Shown in pieces: positions 1,430 to 14,414 of a stretch of 41,052 nucleotides of DNA; positions within the stretch are counted from its first letter, which is position 1; each line of letters begins with the position of its first letter. Source of the stretch: Anaerolineae bacterium (GTDB lineage Bacteria; Chloroflexota; Anaerolineae; UBA4142; SHND01); the NCBI GenBank assembly GCA_020851635.1, contig JADZCJ010000013.1, forward strand, positions 1 through 41,052. Direction: 5' to 3'. A program made the translations under genes and the position numbers. The notes beneath the pieces are model-generated. The model saw nothing but the letters and a program-made list of their open reading frames with translations. It was not told the DNA's origin and did no database searches.

Positions 1430-2054
1430 TCTCTACTCGGAGATCTGGACTCTCCCCCGTTCTATGCTTTAGACGTAACGAATCGGGCAAAAGTTCCTGC
1501 TGCTGGAGGAGGAATTCTCGCATGTGAGCGCGGGCACGCGAAAGGCGTGATTTTACGGTCCCAACATTGGTAGCTGTGGCAGTGGCGATTTCTTCATAGG
1601 CGAAACCATCAATGTCCGAGAGCACCAGTGTAATGCGTTGGTCATAAGGCAGGGTTTGCAAACCCTTGTTAATCCAGAGGGCGAGCTCTGAACGTTCGGC
1701 ATGGTCGTGGGGAGATTCTTCTTGCGCTTCGCCCAGCCCGGGGGCAGGGTTGTCGGGGTCAATCAGCAGGGCGTCGAGTGACGCCGTTGGCTTGCGCTTT
1801 TTGGCGCGCAGCTGGTCGTAGCATGTGTTGGTGACAATGCGCAGCAGCCATGCCTTGAACGAGCCGCCGCGAAAAGAGCGGATATTCTTGTATGCGTTGA
1901 TAAACGCATCCTGTGTCGCGTCGGACGCGGCATCGCCATCGCCCAACACTCGGTATGCCGTGTGATAGACGATGGTTTGGTAGACGCGGACGAGTTGATT
2001 AAAGGACGGCACGTCGCCTTGCTGTGCCGCGACGATCATGTCGGGTTCGTTCAT
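1422..2054 (-). CDS. ECF-type RNA polymerase sigma factor
   Basis: This 210-residue protein has the two-domain layout of extracytoplasmic-function sigma-70 factors. Region 2 covers about 25-95 (DATQDAFINAYKNI, FKAWLLRIVTNTCYDQLR) and would bind core polymerase and the -10 element. Region 4 covers about 140-195 (LPYDQRITLVLSDIDGFAYEE, GTVKSRLSRARAHMREFL) and would bind the -35 element through its helix-turn-helix. An acidic, Pro-rich linker separates them, as is usual. The downstream membrane protein overlaps it by 8 bases and is its likely anti-sigma partner. Targets are unknown and I found no convincing ECF promoter upstream. A second, different ECF factor lies at 39387-39971. Confidence 0.93.
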   Translation of the reverse strand: MNEPDMIVAAQQGDVPSFNQLVRVYQTIVYHTAYRVLGDGDAASDATQDAFINAYKNIRSFRGGSFKAWLLRIVTNTCYDQLRAKKRKPTASLDALLIDPDNPAPGLGEAQEESPHDHAERSELALWINKGLQTLPYDQRITLVLSDIDGFAYEEIATATATNVGTVKSRLSRARAHMREFLLQQQELLPDSLRLKHRTGESPDLRVENV

Positions 2055-2169
2055 ACAATCAGGGCGCGCGACGCTGGACCGATGAAAATTGCGGGCGGCG
2101 CGCGTGCCATCTTGTGACCGTAACTTGTTTCATGCGCGCACTTGATTCTCTACCGGGGGTCCAAAACAG

Positions 2170-2197
2170 TTGACATTTGGGTTTTTCGCGATATAGT
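2170..2197 (+). promoter_or_regulatory. Sigma-70 type promoter of tRNA-Leu
   Basis: The -35 box TTGACA (2170-2175) matches consensus perfectly. A 16-base spacer leads to TATAGT (2192-2197), which matches five of six -10 positions. Transcription would start a few bases before the tRNA 5' end at 2208. Confidence 0.75.
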
Positions 2198-2207
2198 AAT
2201 GACACTT

Positions 2208-2292
2208 GCCGAAGTGGCGGAACTGGCAGACGCGCACGACTCAAAATCGTGTGAGGTTACTCCTCTTGGGGGTTCGACTCCCCCCTTCGGCA
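2208..2292 (+). tRNA. tRNA-Leu (anticodon CAA)
   Basis: The 85-base cloverleaf has a perfect acceptor stem (GCCGAAG at 2208-2214 with CTTCGGC at 2285-2291) and discriminator A at 2292. The anticodon stem CACGA/TCGTG encloses the loop CTCAAAA, giving anticodon CAA, which reads UUG leucine codons. A long variable arm, as expected for class II tRNA-Leu, precedes the T arm with its GGTTCGACTCC core. The CCA end is not encoded. Confidence 0.97.
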
Positions 2293-2478
2293 CTCGCACG
2301 ATTATAATGGTATCGGCACGTTAATCCAAACATTTTGCCTGGTAATCCTCGCACGCACTCCCACTTTTGTGTGCGATCCAGACGCCTCGCGTCATTGCGG
2401 CGACCTCGAACGCCGTCTTGAACAATGACGCCCATACCGCAATGCGTTGGAATCCCACTCTAGCGCGCGGTTCTCAAC

Positions 2479-3420
2479 ATGTCAGATCAAGGGCGGTTTC
2501 CGCGCCGGCATGATGCGCGCGCGACAGACCCCGCACAGGCGGGCTTGCCGCGCCACCGAGGCAACACTGACTCTGCGTATCGCCCACTCTTGTTTAGTTG
2601 GCTGCTTGCTTTGCTTGCCGGTATCGGCGTCGGACTCTTTATCGCGTGGTATGTTTTTCCGGTGAGTTATACCGATGCTCAGCCGTATGATCTCGGCGCG
2701 AGTGACAAGGATGAAATGCTCCGTATGATTGCGTCCTCGTATGCGGTCGAGAATGCTTTTGAACTTGCCAATCGGCGGCTCTATTATCTGCAGCTGCCTG
2801 ACGTCAAAGCGCGTCTGTCCGAGCTGGCGCAGACCGAATCCAACGTCTTGACACAGCAAGCGCTCGTCAAGTTGCGTCTGGACCTTGACGGACCCCGGGC
2901 CGCGCTCGCGCGTCCCACGTCCACGCCTCGCCCAACCCGCGACCTTACGCCGGTCCCGCGTGTCACGGTTATAGTTCTGGAGCCCACTGCCATCGTTCCC
3001 ACCACCGTGCCGCCGACCCCGTTCCCCACCCCGCTTCCGCCCACCAGCGAGCCAAACCCGAACGCTCCATCCTTTGAGTTGGTCTCGCGGCGCGCGCTGG
3101 ACTGTGCGGCGGTCGGAGGAGGGGCGGCGATCTGGGTGGAGGTCCAGGATGTCGCCGGAAATGGGCTGGCGGGGGTTGGTGTGGAGGTCAATTCCGGGCT
3201 GGGAAATGAGCAATTTTTCACAGGTCTAAAGCCCGAACGGGGACCCGGCTTTGGGGATGTGACCGTGACGCCGGGCACATATTCCTTGCATTTGTTAGAA
3301 AATGCTAAAAGCGCCGTCATAAATGATTTGCGGATAGATGCAAATGTTGTAGAATGTGGCTCCAACCCTGCGGCGACGCAGGGCTGGCACCTGGTTTTTC
3401 GCCAAGTTGGGGCGCCGTAG
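2479..3420 (+). CDS. Membrane-anchored protein with Pro/Thr stalk and C-terminal beta domain, function unknown
   Basis: I do not recognise a named family for this 313-residue protein. The first ~35 residues are hydrophilic and Arg/His-rich, followed by one membrane segment near 36-60 (LFSWLLALLAGIGVGLFIAWYVF). Residues 65-135 look helical (YAVENAFELANRRLYYLQL). A Pro/Thr stalk at about 145-195 leads to a C-terminal domain that looks like a small beta-sandwich (GNGLAGVGVEVNSGL, VTPGTYSLHLLE) with two cysteines that could form a disulfide. It ends in WHLVFRQV, resembling the end of the next gene's product (YRLIFQRV), so the two may share an outer domain type. The topology is probably N-in/C-out. 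The ATG at 2479 has no clear ribosome binding site. Confidence 0.7.
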   Translation: MSDQGRFPRRHDARATDPAQAGLPRHRGNTDSAYRPLLFSWLLALLAGIGVGLFIAWYVFPVSYTDAQPYDLGASDKDEMLRMIASSYAVENAFELANRRLYYLQLPDVKARLSELAQTESNVLTQQALVKLRLDLDGPRAALARPTSTPRPTRDLTPVPRVTVIVLEPTAIVPTTVPPTPFPTPLPPTSEPNPNAPSFELVSRRALDCAAVGGGAAIWVEVQDVAGNGLAGVGVEVNSGLGNEQFFTGLKPERGPGFGDVTVTPGTYSLHLLENAKSAVINDLRIDANVVECGSNPAATQGWHLVFRQVGAP

Positions 3421-3548
3421 GGCGTTCCTATCGAATCGAGGTCACCCGGACCTCCCAGGTCAAAAAGTCCTGATCGCAGTGGCGCGATGTGACAAATTTT
3501 GGCATCTGGCAGGATTTGTCCGCCGGGACTTGAGGAAACCGACAGCTC

Positions 3549-6428
3549 GTGATACCACAACCGCTTGACCAAGTACCGTTATTTGCCCGACTATCCGAAG
3601 ACGAGCGCGAACTTTTGAGCAGCCGTCTTCGTCATCTCGAATACAACACCAACAGCATTATCTTTTCCGCAAATAAACCGGCGGAGCTCTTGGCCATTAT
3701 CGTTCAGGGCTGGGTCAAATTGGAAGGCGAGACCGCCCAGGGACCCATTGCGCTGGCAAATCTCGGCGCAGGCAGCGTGATTGGCGAAGTGGACATGTTG
3801 TTGAACCGCCCCTACTCGACTTGCTCGCGGGCGGCGACAACCTGTAGTCTGCTCGCCCTTTACCGCAACGATTTGAACGACCTCATTCTGCAATATCCCT
3901 CTATCGGGTTGAAATTCAGCGCGGCGCTCGGCACACGCGTCGCCCACCTCGACGAGTATCTCGTCACCCAACGACTCTCGTCCAACTCTTTGTTGACCTC
4001 TCTATCTGATTCTGATGCGCGTGCCCTGGCTCGACGCCTGCAGTTCCGCGCGTTTGCGCGGGGCGAGTCCTTGTTCGAGGCGCACGACGAGCCCGAAGCC
4101 GCGTTTCTCATCGAAAGCGGCGTGGTGCGGGTCATCACCGCCACGCGAGAGGGCGAAACCTATGAGGAACTGGGGGAAGGCGAACTGGTCGGGCATACGG
4201 TGCTGATTACGGGTAAACCGTTTCCCGCAACGGGTTTTGCCGTGACGGATGTGAACGCCTGGGTGCTGGCACGGAATGATTACCTCGACCTGATCAATGA
4301 GCAGCCGACGCTCAAGTTGGCATTCTCGCGCGCGATGGCAGAGCGTCTCGGCGTTCAGGACCAAGCCGGCGCCGTAGAGCGCCTCCACGCGCTGCCGTTG
4401 TTTCAGGATGCCGACCGTGAGGCGTTGGATGCCATAGCGCAACGTTTGGTCTTGCGGCATTATCCGGCGGGCGAATTGGTGTATGCAGAGGGCACCCCGG
4501 GCGACGCCATGTATTTTTGCGAATCAGGGCGCGTCAAGTTGATTTCGGATGCGGCGACCGAAGCGGAACTGCTTCACCGCATCGGTTCGGGCGAATCGTT
4601 CGGCGAGATGGCGCTCTTGACGGGGCGCACTCGCGCCGAAGCTGCCAAGGCGATTGACGACACGACTCTTTGGGTCCTCTACAAGACTGAATATGACGAG
4701 TTGATCGTTCAACATCCCGCCTTGTCGCTCGCGCTCTCGCGTGCGCTTTCGTCACGTCTGGGCAGCGCCGAGGGTGACGGGATCGAACGGCATTTGCGCC
4801 AATTGAGTCTGTTTAGCGGGCTTGCGCAAGCCGAACTGCGCCAGGTGTCGAAATATGTGCAGCCCCTGCGCATGCGCGCGGGCGAAACGGTTTGTATGGC
4901 GGGACAGCCCGCTCAATTTGTTTACATTGTCGAATCCGGCGAAGCGCGTGAGATTGCCCAGGGACCAAATGGACAGACAATCGTTCTGGATTTGCTCGGA
5001 CCACAGCAATCGTTTGGCGAGCAGGCAGTTGTCCAAAACAGTGTCTATCCTGTAACGGTACAAGCCGTCGGCGATTTGGAATTGTGGACGATCACCAAGC
5101 CCGATTTTGACCGCATGCTGGCAACGTATCCCGCGCTGGCATTGAGCGTCACGCGACGGATGGCACAAGAATTGGAGCGCGCGACCAAACGCGTCCAGCG
5201 CCCGCAATCGGCGCAATCGGTGCGTCCGGCTCAACCGCAATATGCCCAACCGGCATATGTCAAGCCCCAGCCAGTCCCACAGAAATCTTATGCGCCGCGC
5301 CCTGCGACCGGTAATGGTGGAAATGGAAACGGAGGGAATGGTCACAGCACCTATGCGCCGCGTCCCGCTGTGCCTCAAGCCCCGGCACAAGCCAAAGCGC
5401 AAGCCGCGCCACTGCCGGGAACGGCGGTTGGCGTACGTCCTGCTCCGTCAAAGCCGTGGGAGCGCACGGGCAACGTGGTGCGCCCGATGCCTGCCGCGAC
5501 GGCGCGACCTGTGCAGCCCCGCGTTGGAGCCGCGCATCTTGCAAGGGGCACGCGCAACAGCCGCCCCGGTTTCTTGACATGGTATTCAAACTTGAGCGTT
5601 GGGAACAAGATCGCATCGGTGCTCGTGGCGTTGTTTGCGTTGTGGATTGTGGTGATGCTGCCGTTGTGGCTGATCTATGCTGTCGTCACCGCCGGAGCAG
5701 GCGGCGGCAACAACAATGGCGCACCCAGCCAGGAACTGCCGATCACCAACGTGCTTAGGCAGCCGATCTTTGGCATAAAAATCGCGCAAGCGGTGAAAGA
5801 ACCGACCGCGACACCCTTGCCACCGACCGCGACGCCCGTTCCGCCGACGCCTGAACCAACTGCTGTTCCCGTTCGCAAGGCGGTAGCGGCGCCCGTGGAA
5901 TCAAGCCCCGAAGAACAGGCAGTATCGCCCGAGGCATTGATCCTGGCAGGTCCGGCGGCGGCAAATATTCCGCCTCTCCCGCCGCGCGAATGGGACCCGC
6001 GCGTAGGTCCGACCGCGTCAGATGCTCTTTTGACAGGAGTTGGGTTTACCGAAGCTGTTGTGCCCAGCGGACAAAAGTACTGGCGCCTGGTCAGTATGAA
6101 GTTTGAAGCCCCTGGTCAAGAGTCGGGCGATGACCACAATATTTACGTTTCACTCGTAGACGAAGAAGGCAAGCGGGTCGAAGACAAAGTCGTCGAGATC
6201 TCATGGGATGACAGTGGGACCGTGCAGATGGAACGGCTCGACATGTACTCGGATCAAAAACCCAAGGGTGACTATTGCGAGTGCAATTACAACTGGCCCA
6301 TGTATGGCGCGGGGTATCGCGCGCGCATTGACGATTCGATTCCAAGCGACCGCGTATATGGGATGATTATGCCCATGAAGCGGCACGTCAATTATCGCCT
6401 TATCTTTCAGCGTGTTACTATGCCTTGA
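3549..6428 (+). CDS. Four-fold cyclic-nucleotide-binding-like transmembrane protein
   Basis: The 959-residue protein starts at GTG 3549. Four CRP/FNR-type cNMP-binding-like domains follow each other at about 1-135, 136-275, 276-410 and 411-550. Only the third keeps the full phosphate-binding signature (FGEMALLTGRTRAEA); the first keeps GE, the second has GH instead of GE, and the fourth has FGE without the arginine. No CRP-type helix-turn-helix follows. A Gln/Pro/Ala/Gly-rich linker (about 550-670) leads to one membrane segment near 685-712 (IASVLVALFALWIVVMLPLWLIYAV), then a Pro/Thr stalk and an outer domain to the end. The layout suggests that a cytoplasmic nucleotide or protein signal is passed to an extracytoplasmic domain, or the reverse. 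The domain assignment is firm; the function is unknown. Confidence 0.85.
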   Translation: MIPQPLDQVPLFARLSEDERELLSSRLRHLEYNTNSIIFSANKPAELLAIIVQGWVKLEGETAQGPIALANLGAGSVIGEVDMLLNRPYSTCSRAATTCSLLALYRNDLNDLILQYPSIGLKFSAALGTRVAHLDEYLVTQRLSSNSLLTSLSDSDARALARRLQFRAFARGESLFEAHDEPEAAFLIESGVVRVITATREGETYEELGEGELVGHTVLITGKPFPATGFAVTDVNAWVLARNDYLDLINEQPTLKLAFSRAMAERLGVQDQAGAVERLHALPLFQDADREALDAIAQRLVLRHYPAGELVYAEGTPGDAMYFCESGRVKLISDAATEAELLHRIGSGESFGEMALLTGRTRAEAAKAIDDTTLWVLYKTEYDELIVQHPALSLALSRALSSRLGSAEGDGIERHLRQLSLFSGLAQAELRQVSKYVQPLRMRAGETVCMAGQPAQFVYIVESGEAREIAQGPNGQTIVLDLLGPQQSFGEQAVVQNSVYPVTVQAVGDLELWTITKPDFDRMLATYPALALSVTRRMAQELERATKRVQRPQSAQSVRPAQPQYAQPAYVKPQPVPQKSYAPRPATGNGGNGNGGNGHSTYAPRPAVPQAPAQAKAQAAPLPGTAVGVRPAPSKPWERTGNVVRPMPAATARPVQPRVGAAHLARGTRNSRPGFLTWYSNLSVGNKIASVLVALFALWIVVMLPLWLIYAVVTAGAGGGNNNGAPSQELPITNVLRQPIFGIKIAQAVKEPTATPLPPTATPVPPTPEPTAVPVRKAVAAPVESSPEEQAVSPEALILAGPAAANIPPLPPREWDPRVGPTASDALLTGVGFTEAVVPSGQKYWRLVSMKFEAPGQESGDDHNIYVSLVDEEGKRVEDKVVEISWDDSGTVQMERLDMYSDQKPKGDYCECNYNWPMYGAGYRARIDDSIPSDRVYGMIMPMKRHVNYRLIFQRVTMP

Positions 6429-12443: not shown

Positions 12444-12458
12444 GAAAAGGGCAAGGGG

Positions 12459-12548
12459 GCAAATCGGAGATTTGCGGCCCCGCGGTCCTGGGGGAGGGGG
12501 CAAATCAGAGATTTGCGGTCCCAGGGAGGGGTCAAGTCGGAGATTTGC
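12459..12548 (+). repeat. Three tandem-spaced copies of a 17-base hairpin repeat
   Basis: Copies lie at 12459-12475 (GCAAATCGGAGATTTGC), 12500-12516 (one base different) and 12532-12548 (left arm degraded to TCAAGTC). Each is followed by CGG(C/T)CC, and G-rich tracts separate them. The first two are inverted repeats with 7-base arms (GCAAATC/GATTTGC). They resemble REP-type intergenic elements. They sit between a gene end and a promoter, so the first two could also act as weak terminator or processing hairpins. Confidence 0.75.
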
Positions 12549-12569
12549 GGTCCCGGGTTTGTGCCCCCA

Positions 12570-12598
12570 TTGACGCCCCCCCTAATTCGAATTACACT
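12570..12598 (+). promoter_or_regulatory. Promoter of the ATP-grasp gene cluster
   Basis: The -35 box TTGACG (12570-12575), a 17-base spacer and the -10 box TACACT (12593-12598) match sigma-70 promoters at five and four of six positions. The -10 box ends eight bases before ATG 12607, which predicts a leaderless or nearly leaderless mRNA. Confidence 0.55.
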
Positions 12599-12606
12599 CG
12601 CTCTTG

Positions 12607-14094
12607 ATGAGCAGCCGCCCAAATTCACCCTTTAGCCCCGATGAATATGGTCTGCGTGGTGTCTCGCTGGACCTGTATCTGCGACAGATTTTTGCCGCGC
12701 TGCCCGCGGAGGAGGTGCGCGCGCTGAGCCGGGCGGTGCATGACGAATCCAAACGGCGAGAGCTGGTCTATTATCACGACGGCAATATTGAAGTGATCAA
12801 TGTGCTCCTGCGCCCCGTCGCCGTTTTTTCGGAGCAGTTGAATTATCTGCATTACGTGTCTCAGACGCTGCTGGGCGCGCTCAAGCGGATGCCGGAGCTG
12901 TATCTCAAAGATTTCCAAGTCCGCCGGATTGTGCCTCTGGAAGAGGGCGAAGCCAAATGGTTGTGGGATACGTGGGGCGCGAGTCACAATCAGTTTCACA
13001 CCGTCTTTGGACGGTTGGATGCAATCGCCGATTTTACGGCCGCATTCGCCAAGGATTCGCTATCGTTCATCGAGCCGAACCTGGTGGGGGCAGGGGGGAT
13101 TCATCTCATCCCCGCCTCTGAAGACACCATTCTGGGCACTGTCGTGCCAATGATGGAGCGGGCTGCGCCCGATTTGGAACTGCACAAGACGGATGACCTG
13201 CGGGAAACGTTTATGCAGGAAATTATGGACCATGCCGAGGCGACGGGGCGCAGTGGGCGCGCGATTTGTTTTATTGACCCCAAGTATGAAGGTGATGGTC
13301 CGAATGAACAAGAGTCCCTGATGCATTTCTATCGCGGGCGCGGCATCGAGGTCTATCACGCCGATCCCGAAGAGTTGTATATTCGCAACAATGAGGTCTA
13401 TTACGAAAACCACTTGATTGACGTCGCCTATCGCGATTATGAAGTGCGCGAGCTGGCAGAGATGGAACAGGACGGGATGAATGTGCGCCCGATGAAGCAT
13501 CTCTTTCGACAGAATCAAATGGTGAGTTCGATGGCGGGCGAATTCGACCACAAGTCGTGCTTTGAAATTTTCACCGACCCGCAGTACTCGCAGCACTTTA
13601 CGATGGACGAACGGAACATGTTTCGACGCCATGTGTTGTGGACGCGTGTGCTGCGCGATACTCGAACTACCGACCCTATGGGCGAGCTTGCAGGACTGTT
13701 GGAATTTACGCGCGAGAACCGCGAGTTTTTGGTGATCAAGCCAAACCGATCATACGGCGGTGAGGATGTGTTGATCGGTCCATCCATCACGCAGGGCGAT
13801 TGGGAGGCGGCGATAGAACGCGCGGTAGGCGAGCCGGGCGCGTGGGTTGTCCAGCGACTGGCGCGCATTCCGGTGTACGAATTTCCGGTGCTGGCGATGG
13901 ATGGGACGGTGCAAACGACGCCCTTTTATGTGGTGTATGGACTGGCACCCACCAAATATGGACTGGCGATTCTGGGGCGCGCATCACAAAAACAGGTAGT
14001 AAATGTGGCGCAGCGCGGGGGCATGGTGGCGGTGCTGGTCGGACAACACAAACATCAAATTCCCGCGCCACAAATGCCCAAAGACAATTCATGA
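12607..14094 (+). CDS. ATP-grasp ligase-like protein
   Basis: The 495-residue protein looks like an ATP-grasp enzyme, a fold that forms amide bonds through an acyl-phosphate. The C-terminal half holds the recognisable nucleotide-binding part: EFLVIKPNRSYGGEDVLIGP with the ATP-binding Lys and Gly-rich loop, then WVVQRLARIPVYEFPVL. The N-terminal half holds FIEPNLVGAGGIHLIP and ICFIDPKYEGDGPNEQE, followed by an acidic stretch. The order resembles circularly permuted ATP-grasp proteins of the glutathionylspermidine synthase type, but I cannot name the family or substrate. ATG 12607 is preferred to the adjacent TTG 12604. The stop overlaps the next start (ATGA), so the two proteins are probably made together. 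Confidence 0.7.
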   Translation: MSSRPNSPFSPDEYGLRGVSLDLYLRQIFAALPAEEVRALSRAVHDESKRRELVYYHDGNIEVINVLLRPVAVFSEQLNYLHYVSQTLLGALKRMPELYLKDFQVRRIVPLEEGEAKWLWDTWGASHNQFHTVFGRLDAIADFTAAFAKDSLSFIEPNLVGAGGIHLIPASEDTILGTVVPMMERAAPDLELHKTDDLRETFMQEIMDHAEATGRSGRAICFIDPKYEGDGPNEQESLMHFYRGRGIEVYHADPEELYIRNNEVYYENHLIDVAYRDYEVRELAEMEQDGMNVRPMKHLFRQNQMVSSMAGEFDHKSCFEIFTDPQYSQHFTMDERNMFRRHVLWTRVLRDTRTTDPMGELAGLLEFTRENREFLVIKPNRSYGGEDVLIGPSITQGDWEAAIERAVGEPGAWVVQRLARIPVYEFPVLAMDGTVQTTPFYVVYGLAPTKYGLAILGRASQKQVVNVAQRGGMVAVLVGQHKHQIPAPQMPKDNS

Positions 14095-14414
14095 AACGAC
14101 ACGCATTGATAATCATTGGTCAGCTCAGACCGCAGTGGGCAGAGTTGACCGAAGAAGAACAGGCGGGATTTGCGGCGCGGGTCCGTCGCGCGGCGAGCGC
14201 GGCGGGGGTCACGGCGGCGCTGGGATATACTCTCACCACCAAAGGTTCCTTTATGGAAATCTGGGAGGCGGAAGACAAAGCCACGCTGGAAGCTTTCAAG
14301 CACAAATTGGACGCGCTGGGATATAAAAAGTATTATAAAGAGGTGTTGATGTTGGGCGAACGCGAGGCCGAATGGGTTGCTCCCGCGCTACAAGAGAAAC
14401 GCGCCGACAGTTAA
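14091..14414 (+). CDS. Small protein coupled to the ATP-grasp gene, function unknown
   Basis: The 107-residue product begins at ATG 14091 inside the ATGA overlap with the ATP-grasp gene, a strong sign of coupled translation. The N-terminal strand KRHALIIIGQL, two amphipathic helices and a second strand pair (GSFMEIWEA, YYKEVLMLGERE) suggest a compact alpha/beta, ferredoxin-like fold of the dimeric barrel kind. No catalytic motif is evident. A longer reading in the same frame starts at 13800, but that part only shadows the ATP-grasp gene. It may be an accessory subunit or substrate-handling partner of the ATP-grasp protein; that is inference. Confidence 0.75.
   Translation: MKRHALIIIGQLRPQWAELTEEEQAGFAARVRRAASAAGVTAALGYTLTTKGSFMEIWEAEDKATLEAFKHKLDALGYKKYYKEVLMLGEREAEWVAPALQEKRADS

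Follow-up and report, generated by a model that had tools for sequence, protein, structure and literature searches.

A putative circularly permuted ATP-grasp amide ligase of Anaerolineae with a DUF6616-like protein as a possible optional helper

In a 41,052-nucleotide stretch of contig JADZCJ010000013.1 from an Anaerolineae bacterium (this whole stretch is hereafter the window), a gene for a predicted ATP-grasp enzyme runs directly into a second gene for a small protein, which raises the questions of what reaction the enzyme might catalyze and whether the small protein is its partner. The account that we favor, with a probability of about 0.6, is that the larger protein is a carboxylate-amine ligase of the GspS/YgiC/Cp1B type and that the smaller, DUF6616-like protein serves as an optional helper in the window genus.

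Table 1. Coordinates in the window of the gene pair, its predicted promoter and the diagnostic motifs of the ligase
Feature	Position	Strand	Basis
Circularly permuted ATP-grasp ligase (P0001), 495 aa	12607..14094	+	ORF; weak CP_ATPgrasp_2 match; invariant catalytic residues
DUF6616-like protein (P0002), 107 aa, predicted dimeric alpha/beta-barrel (ferredoxin-like) fold	14091..14414	+	ORF, homologs, model, fold matches
Predicted promoter TTGACG-17-TACACT, near-leaderless transcript	12570..12598	+	Consensus match; kept in L033 and L035, with an altered form in L032
RxD motif, codons R136-L-D138	13012..13020	+	Invariant in 41 sequences; HMM alignment with YgiC/YjfC; equivalent to R139/D141 of Cp1B
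ExN motif, codons E156-P-N158	13072..13080	+	Invariant in 41 sequences; equivalent to E163/N165 of Cp1B
ATP-grasp nucleotide-binding segment KPNRSYGG, codons K378 to GG384-385	13738..13761	+	Invariant; aligned to 3n6x

Both ORFs are real protein-coding genes: they are 77-84% (ligase) and 57-71% (small protein) identical to their genus-mate homologs, and their NG86 dN/dS values of ~0.05-0.09 and 0.11-0.37, respectively, denote purifying selection. A sequence-only reading of the locus had described an ATGA overlap between the two genes and a promoter giving a leaderless transcript, and both features withstood comparison. The tetranucleotide at 14091-14094 is indeed common to the two frames. The 3' end of the predicted promoter, a sigma-70-like one, lies 8 nt 5' of the ligase ATG and 5 nt 5' of an alternative in-frame TTG start at 12604. 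Taken by itself the consensus match is not above chance, with about one match expected in a region of equal size; nevertheless, hexamers and spacing identical to those of the window precede the ligase ATG in L033 and L035, and a variant, TTGTCC-17-TATAAT, precedes the GTG start of the ligase in L032. Because the promoter recurs in these genus mates, a leaderless start appears to be a reasonable prediction for the window genus. The ligase genes of the sister family (f83) mostly have an AGGAGG-like Shine-Dalgarno sequence before the start instead. Just upstream of the ligase promoter the window also carries three imperfect 33-nt direct repeats (12449-12554), whose core, CAAATCGGAGATTTGCGG, contains a small palindrome (CAAATC..GATTTG), is absent from the rest of the window and is possibly a REP-like element.

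The earlier reading could name no family for the larger protein, but profile analysis places it among the circularly permuted, glutathionylspermidine-synthase-like (GspS-like) ATP-grasp enzymes typified by CP_ATPgrasp_2, 3n6x, Cp1B and YgiC/YjfC. On its own P0001 matches the Pfam model CP_ATPgrasp_2 (PF14403) with an E-value of 1.2e-4 and 21.6 bits against a cut-off of 32, and is hence no formal member of that Pfam family; its relatives and its residues place it in the superfamily. Its homologs across the phylum are ~470-aa proteins that are recovered with E-values of 1e-20 to 1e-27 over most of their length and themselves match PF14403. Among the scanned family members, all 18 match this model at E <= 0.01 and 11 of the 18 match PF04174. 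Searches of the PDB with a profile of the whole family recovered 3n6x (5.6e-15), Cp1B (9cjn; 4.3e-6) and YgiC/YjfC (0.0006 and 0.0013), and the profile of the window clade by itself recovered 3n6x at 4e-4. In an alignment of 41 sequences R136, D138, E156 and N158 show no variation whatsoever, and H315-K316, W345-T346-R347, K378 and GG384-385 are likewise invariant. The RxD...ExN residues are N-terminal to the nucleotide-binding K...GG segment, which is the order seen in GspS-like circularly permuted ATP-grasp ligases. The corresponding residues of Cp1B are R139, D141, E163 and N165, and their replacement with alanine abolishes or greatly lowers activity (PMC12568646). An AlphaFold model built from an alignment of 12 close sequences is poor (pLDDT 42), so that the assignment of the ATP-grasp fold rests on sequence; searches with NCBIfam and PADLOC recovered nothing useful for either the ligase or the small protein.

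These family matches and invariant residues offer good support for the circularly permuted GspS-like assignment, and for the earlier proposal that this ATP-grasp protein makes amide or peptide bonds. Given the invariant residues and their alignment with those of Cp1B and YgiC/YjfC, the large protein is most likely an active acyl-phosphate amide ligase that joins an acid to an amine. Such an enzyme would bind ATP-Mg and use R136, D138, E156 and N158 to activate a carboxylic acid by phosphorylation; the acyl group of the resulting acyl-phosphate would pass to an amine to form the amide, with the release of ADP and phosphate.

Whole-genome searches divided the relatives of the ligase into two groups, namely a close clade with ~44-85% identity to it and a wider family with ~25% identity. 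In the phylogenetic tree the 27 members of the window clade are monophyletic, with 100/100 support and long stems. The clade is present in 28 of the 396 genomes sampled from the class, and appears to have been inherited vertically within this one Chloroflexota class. It has invariant positions of its own, among them an aspartate (D277) where the wider family has an arginine. The two groups also differ in their gene neighborhoods: a GCS2 ligase gene (PF04107, 7e-68) adjoins the ligase in 22 of 33 loci of the wider family, but in none of the 29 window-clade loci. The separate clade, its own invariant positions and the lack of GCS2 linkage thus suggest, as the best account of these sequence comparisons, that it is a new and distinct subfamily of the GspS/YgiC/Cp1B-like amide ligases. 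As it has parted from the GCS2-associated branch, it probably uses substrates other than those of that branch. Circularly permuted ATP-grasp ligases have previously given new amide-forming chemistry (YgiC/YjfC and Cp1B), and a highly conserved, uncharacterized clade with intact catalytic residues and distinct invariant positions is therefore a sensible target for substrate screening.

Beyond the clade, the window genome itself has a second CP-ATP-grasp paralog of the wider family on contig C32, which scores above the PF14403 cut-off (36.9 bits). It is clustered (L136, G000:C32:27000-36000, at 1722-5795) with genes for an LMW phosphatase, a GCS2 ligase and a 305-aa protein that has no Pfam match, and a further ATP-grasp gene lies ~2 kb beyond this cluster. 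A distant relative of the ligase is encoded on the Pantoea plasmid pNBBC01-5 (L073, 4503-13209) among ectB, ThiF, TauD, GNAT, CapA, ATP-grasp and purD genes, an uncharacterized cluster that looks like a biosynthetic one.

Certain CP-ATP-grasp proteins belong to a predicted peptide-tagging or synthesis system together with Alpha-E and transglutaminase proteins (the COG2307/COG2308 type). Membership of the same Pfam family, CP_ATPgrasp_2, could link our ligase to this system, but neither Alpha-E nor transglutaminase neighbors were found among the genes scanned, and the window genome as sequenced lacks an Alpha-E domain, which two control genomes do give. An Alpha-E system is thus ruled out for the window genome as sequenced, and a function of the ligase in one appears highly improbable. 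Nor does any other gene accompany the ligase universally: its upstream and downstream neighbors vary between families and include genes for a GH-like lipoprotein, an S9 peptidase, a GT4 glycosyltransferase, a KAP NTPase, TPR proteins, a CHAT protein and TldD, none of which hints at a substrate of the ligase. In five genomes from three families an S9 (prolyl oligopeptidase family) gene adjoins it (L038 750-2984, L040 4079-5950, L042 4066-5865, L098 4977-6863 and L106 8754-10769), an adjacency that we regard as a lead only. It might be taken to mean that ligase and hydrolase work with or against each other as a pair that makes and breaks an amide, and the adjacency is seen though each tested genome has only 1-10 strong S9 matches. 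However, the window genus lacks a close homolog of this S9 enzyme, the S9 orthologs of family f3 are mostly unlinked to the ligase, the gene orientation in L098 differs, and the enzyme of L106 has only ~25% identity with the rest; this makes such a pairing an unlikely explanation of the clade.

Turning to the small protein, the ferredoxin-like fold predicted for it by the earlier reading is borne out by a structural model with a pLDDT of 83, which displays the beta-alpha-beta-beta-alpha-beta topology of the dimeric alpha/beta barrels. A fold search with this model recovered, with Z-scores of 8-10, the domains of coproheme decarboxylase, the small conserved proteins 3lo3 and 2fiu, OAC and others; a single-sequence search of the PDB with the small protein returned only noise. 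It had also been described as devoid of known motifs, but it does belong to a recognizable family: P0002 itself is a borderline match to DUF6616 (PF20321; E 7.8e-6, 26.6 bits against a 27-bit cut-off), and 9 of 10 members of its sequence family match this model at E <= 0.01. The assignment as a DUF6616-like protein with a predicted dimeric alpha/beta-barrel fold is thereby supported. This fold is common to many unrelated functions, and DUF6616 is not named in the literature that was searched. The sequence family was detected in 15 of the 20 genomes of the window order, and the remainder of the 396-genome class sample yielded no member of it.

The claim that this protein is a dedicated partner of the ligase did not survive the examination of gene neighborhoods across the clade. 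Among the 27 testable clade members the small gene lies beside the ligase in 6, and it is absent from that position in the 21 other clade loci that have downstream sequence; the locus of G353 ends at a contig end and falls outside this count. Within the window genus (g1) the genes occur together in all five ligase-bearing genomes: they overlap by ATGA in the window genome (G000) and G305 (L032), are 42 nt apart in G302, and are separated by an inserted 23S_rRNA_IVP gene in G301; in G304 they lie on facing contig ends with 10 nt in common, the linkage being a likely one across an assembly gap. The inserted gene of G301 (L034 7476-7841) codes for a four-helix bundle and has tandem GGATGAA repeats upstream. 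Outside the genus the two genes are together only in G307, again with an ATGA overlap (L041). Across the 20 genomes of the order both genes are present in 10, the ligase alone in three (G309, G312 and G314), the small gene without a detected clade ligase in five (G306, G308, G310, G315 and G319) and neither in two, a co-occurrence not beyond chance (Fisher p = 1.0). As some of these genomes are incomplete, single absences are to be treated as soft. As a rule, then, the small protein is not a dedicated partner of the ligase.

In the sister family f83 the small gene resides in a different setting. In eight genomes it lies upstream of the gene for a conserved 102-aa protein, beyond which come genes for EamA, homocysteine S-methyltransferase and SBP5, and ssb lies upstream of the small gene where visible; in one of the family's genomes, G306, it overlaps the 102-aa protein gene by 4 nt, and in a ninth genome, G319, it adjoins ssb. 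The Cys-containing 102-aa protein (L123 5845-6150, with equivalents in L118-L125) is present in 18 of the 20 order genomes and has no Pfam match; its gene is usually located between the DUF6616-like gene and the EamA/homocysteine S-methyltransferase genes. Given this home cluster, it is quite possible that the ligase functions as proposed and that the small protein is an unrelated passenger, the overlap being a matter of chance packing inherited within the genus. The cluster of the nine f83 genomes, with its own 4-nt overlap in G306, is consistent with this alternative, as are the chance-level co-occurrence of the two genes and the gene that splits them in G301. Against it stands the identical ATGA junction in a second family, in G307, where the small gene is no longer part of its customary cluster: the ssb, 102-aa protein, EamA and homocysteine S-methyltransferase genes of this genome (a fragmented MAG, 88% complete) form an intact cluster without it. 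The G307 small protein is nested inside the f83 branch (f83 stem 100/100; nested fork 94/88). This descent of the G307 copy from the cluster, combined with its ATGA overlap with the ligase, suggests that the coupling probably arose twice, independently, even though one common origin of the linkage withstands testing at the 5% level (AU p = 0.073).

Coupling that arose twice would argue for some functional link, and the overlap or adjacency in the window genus, together with its apparently independent counterpart in G307, makes a facultative link between ligase and small protein plausible. Of the ligating pair envisaged by the sequence-only reading, the amide ligase is thus retained, the obligate pairing is not, and a facultative one in these lineages is plausible. 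Under the account favored here, the DUF6616-like protein of the window genus would be made by translation coupled to that of the ligase and might bind the substrate or product of the latter or process the product further. A bolder version, in which the barrel protein and the ligase constitute a two-component amide-ligase system, the small gene having been captured twice, that makes a Chloroflexota metabolite or peptide modification with the barrel protein handling the product or substrate of the CP ATP-grasp enzyme, strikes us as rather doubtful. The apparent repeated coupling in any case offers a testable context for a DUF6616-like protein.

Comparisons with known systems place both proteins at a considerable distance from their characterized counterparts. 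The small protein shares its fold with DUF6616, GYD and other dimeric alpha/beta-barrel proteins (the coproheme decarboxylase domain, OAC, 3lo3 and 2fiu; Z up to 10.0), but it is only ~10-20% identical to the solved barrel structures, and the fold alone implies no common function. For the ligase the best solved match is 3n6x, a putative glutathionylspermidine synthase to which both halves of the protein can be aligned, albeit with low identity. The E. coli peptide-spermidine ligases YgiC and YjfC (PDB 7uk8 and 7uk6) are aligned by profile along the RxD...ExN segment, but the match (E 0.0006-0.0013) covers this N-terminal segment only, and there is no sign of a polyamine substrate for the window ligase. 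Cp1B (PDB 9cjn), the fungal ATP-grasp ligase of E-64, is likewise recovered by profile, and its R139/D141/E163/N165 correspond in pattern to R136/D138/E156/N158 of the window ligase; it is nonetheless distant (E 4.3e-6 even with the whole-family profile), and the setting of the window ligase does not point to epoxysuccinate or amino acids, the substrates of Cp1B. The GCS2-linked CP-ATP-grasp family, found in Chloroflexota and others and annotated on rhizobial plasmids as 'glutathionylspermidine synthase family protein', resembles the window clade in its length (~450-490 aa), in possessing all the catalytic residues and in being ~25% identical along most of the sequence; it is the sister group of the window clade, from which it is separated by a very long branch.
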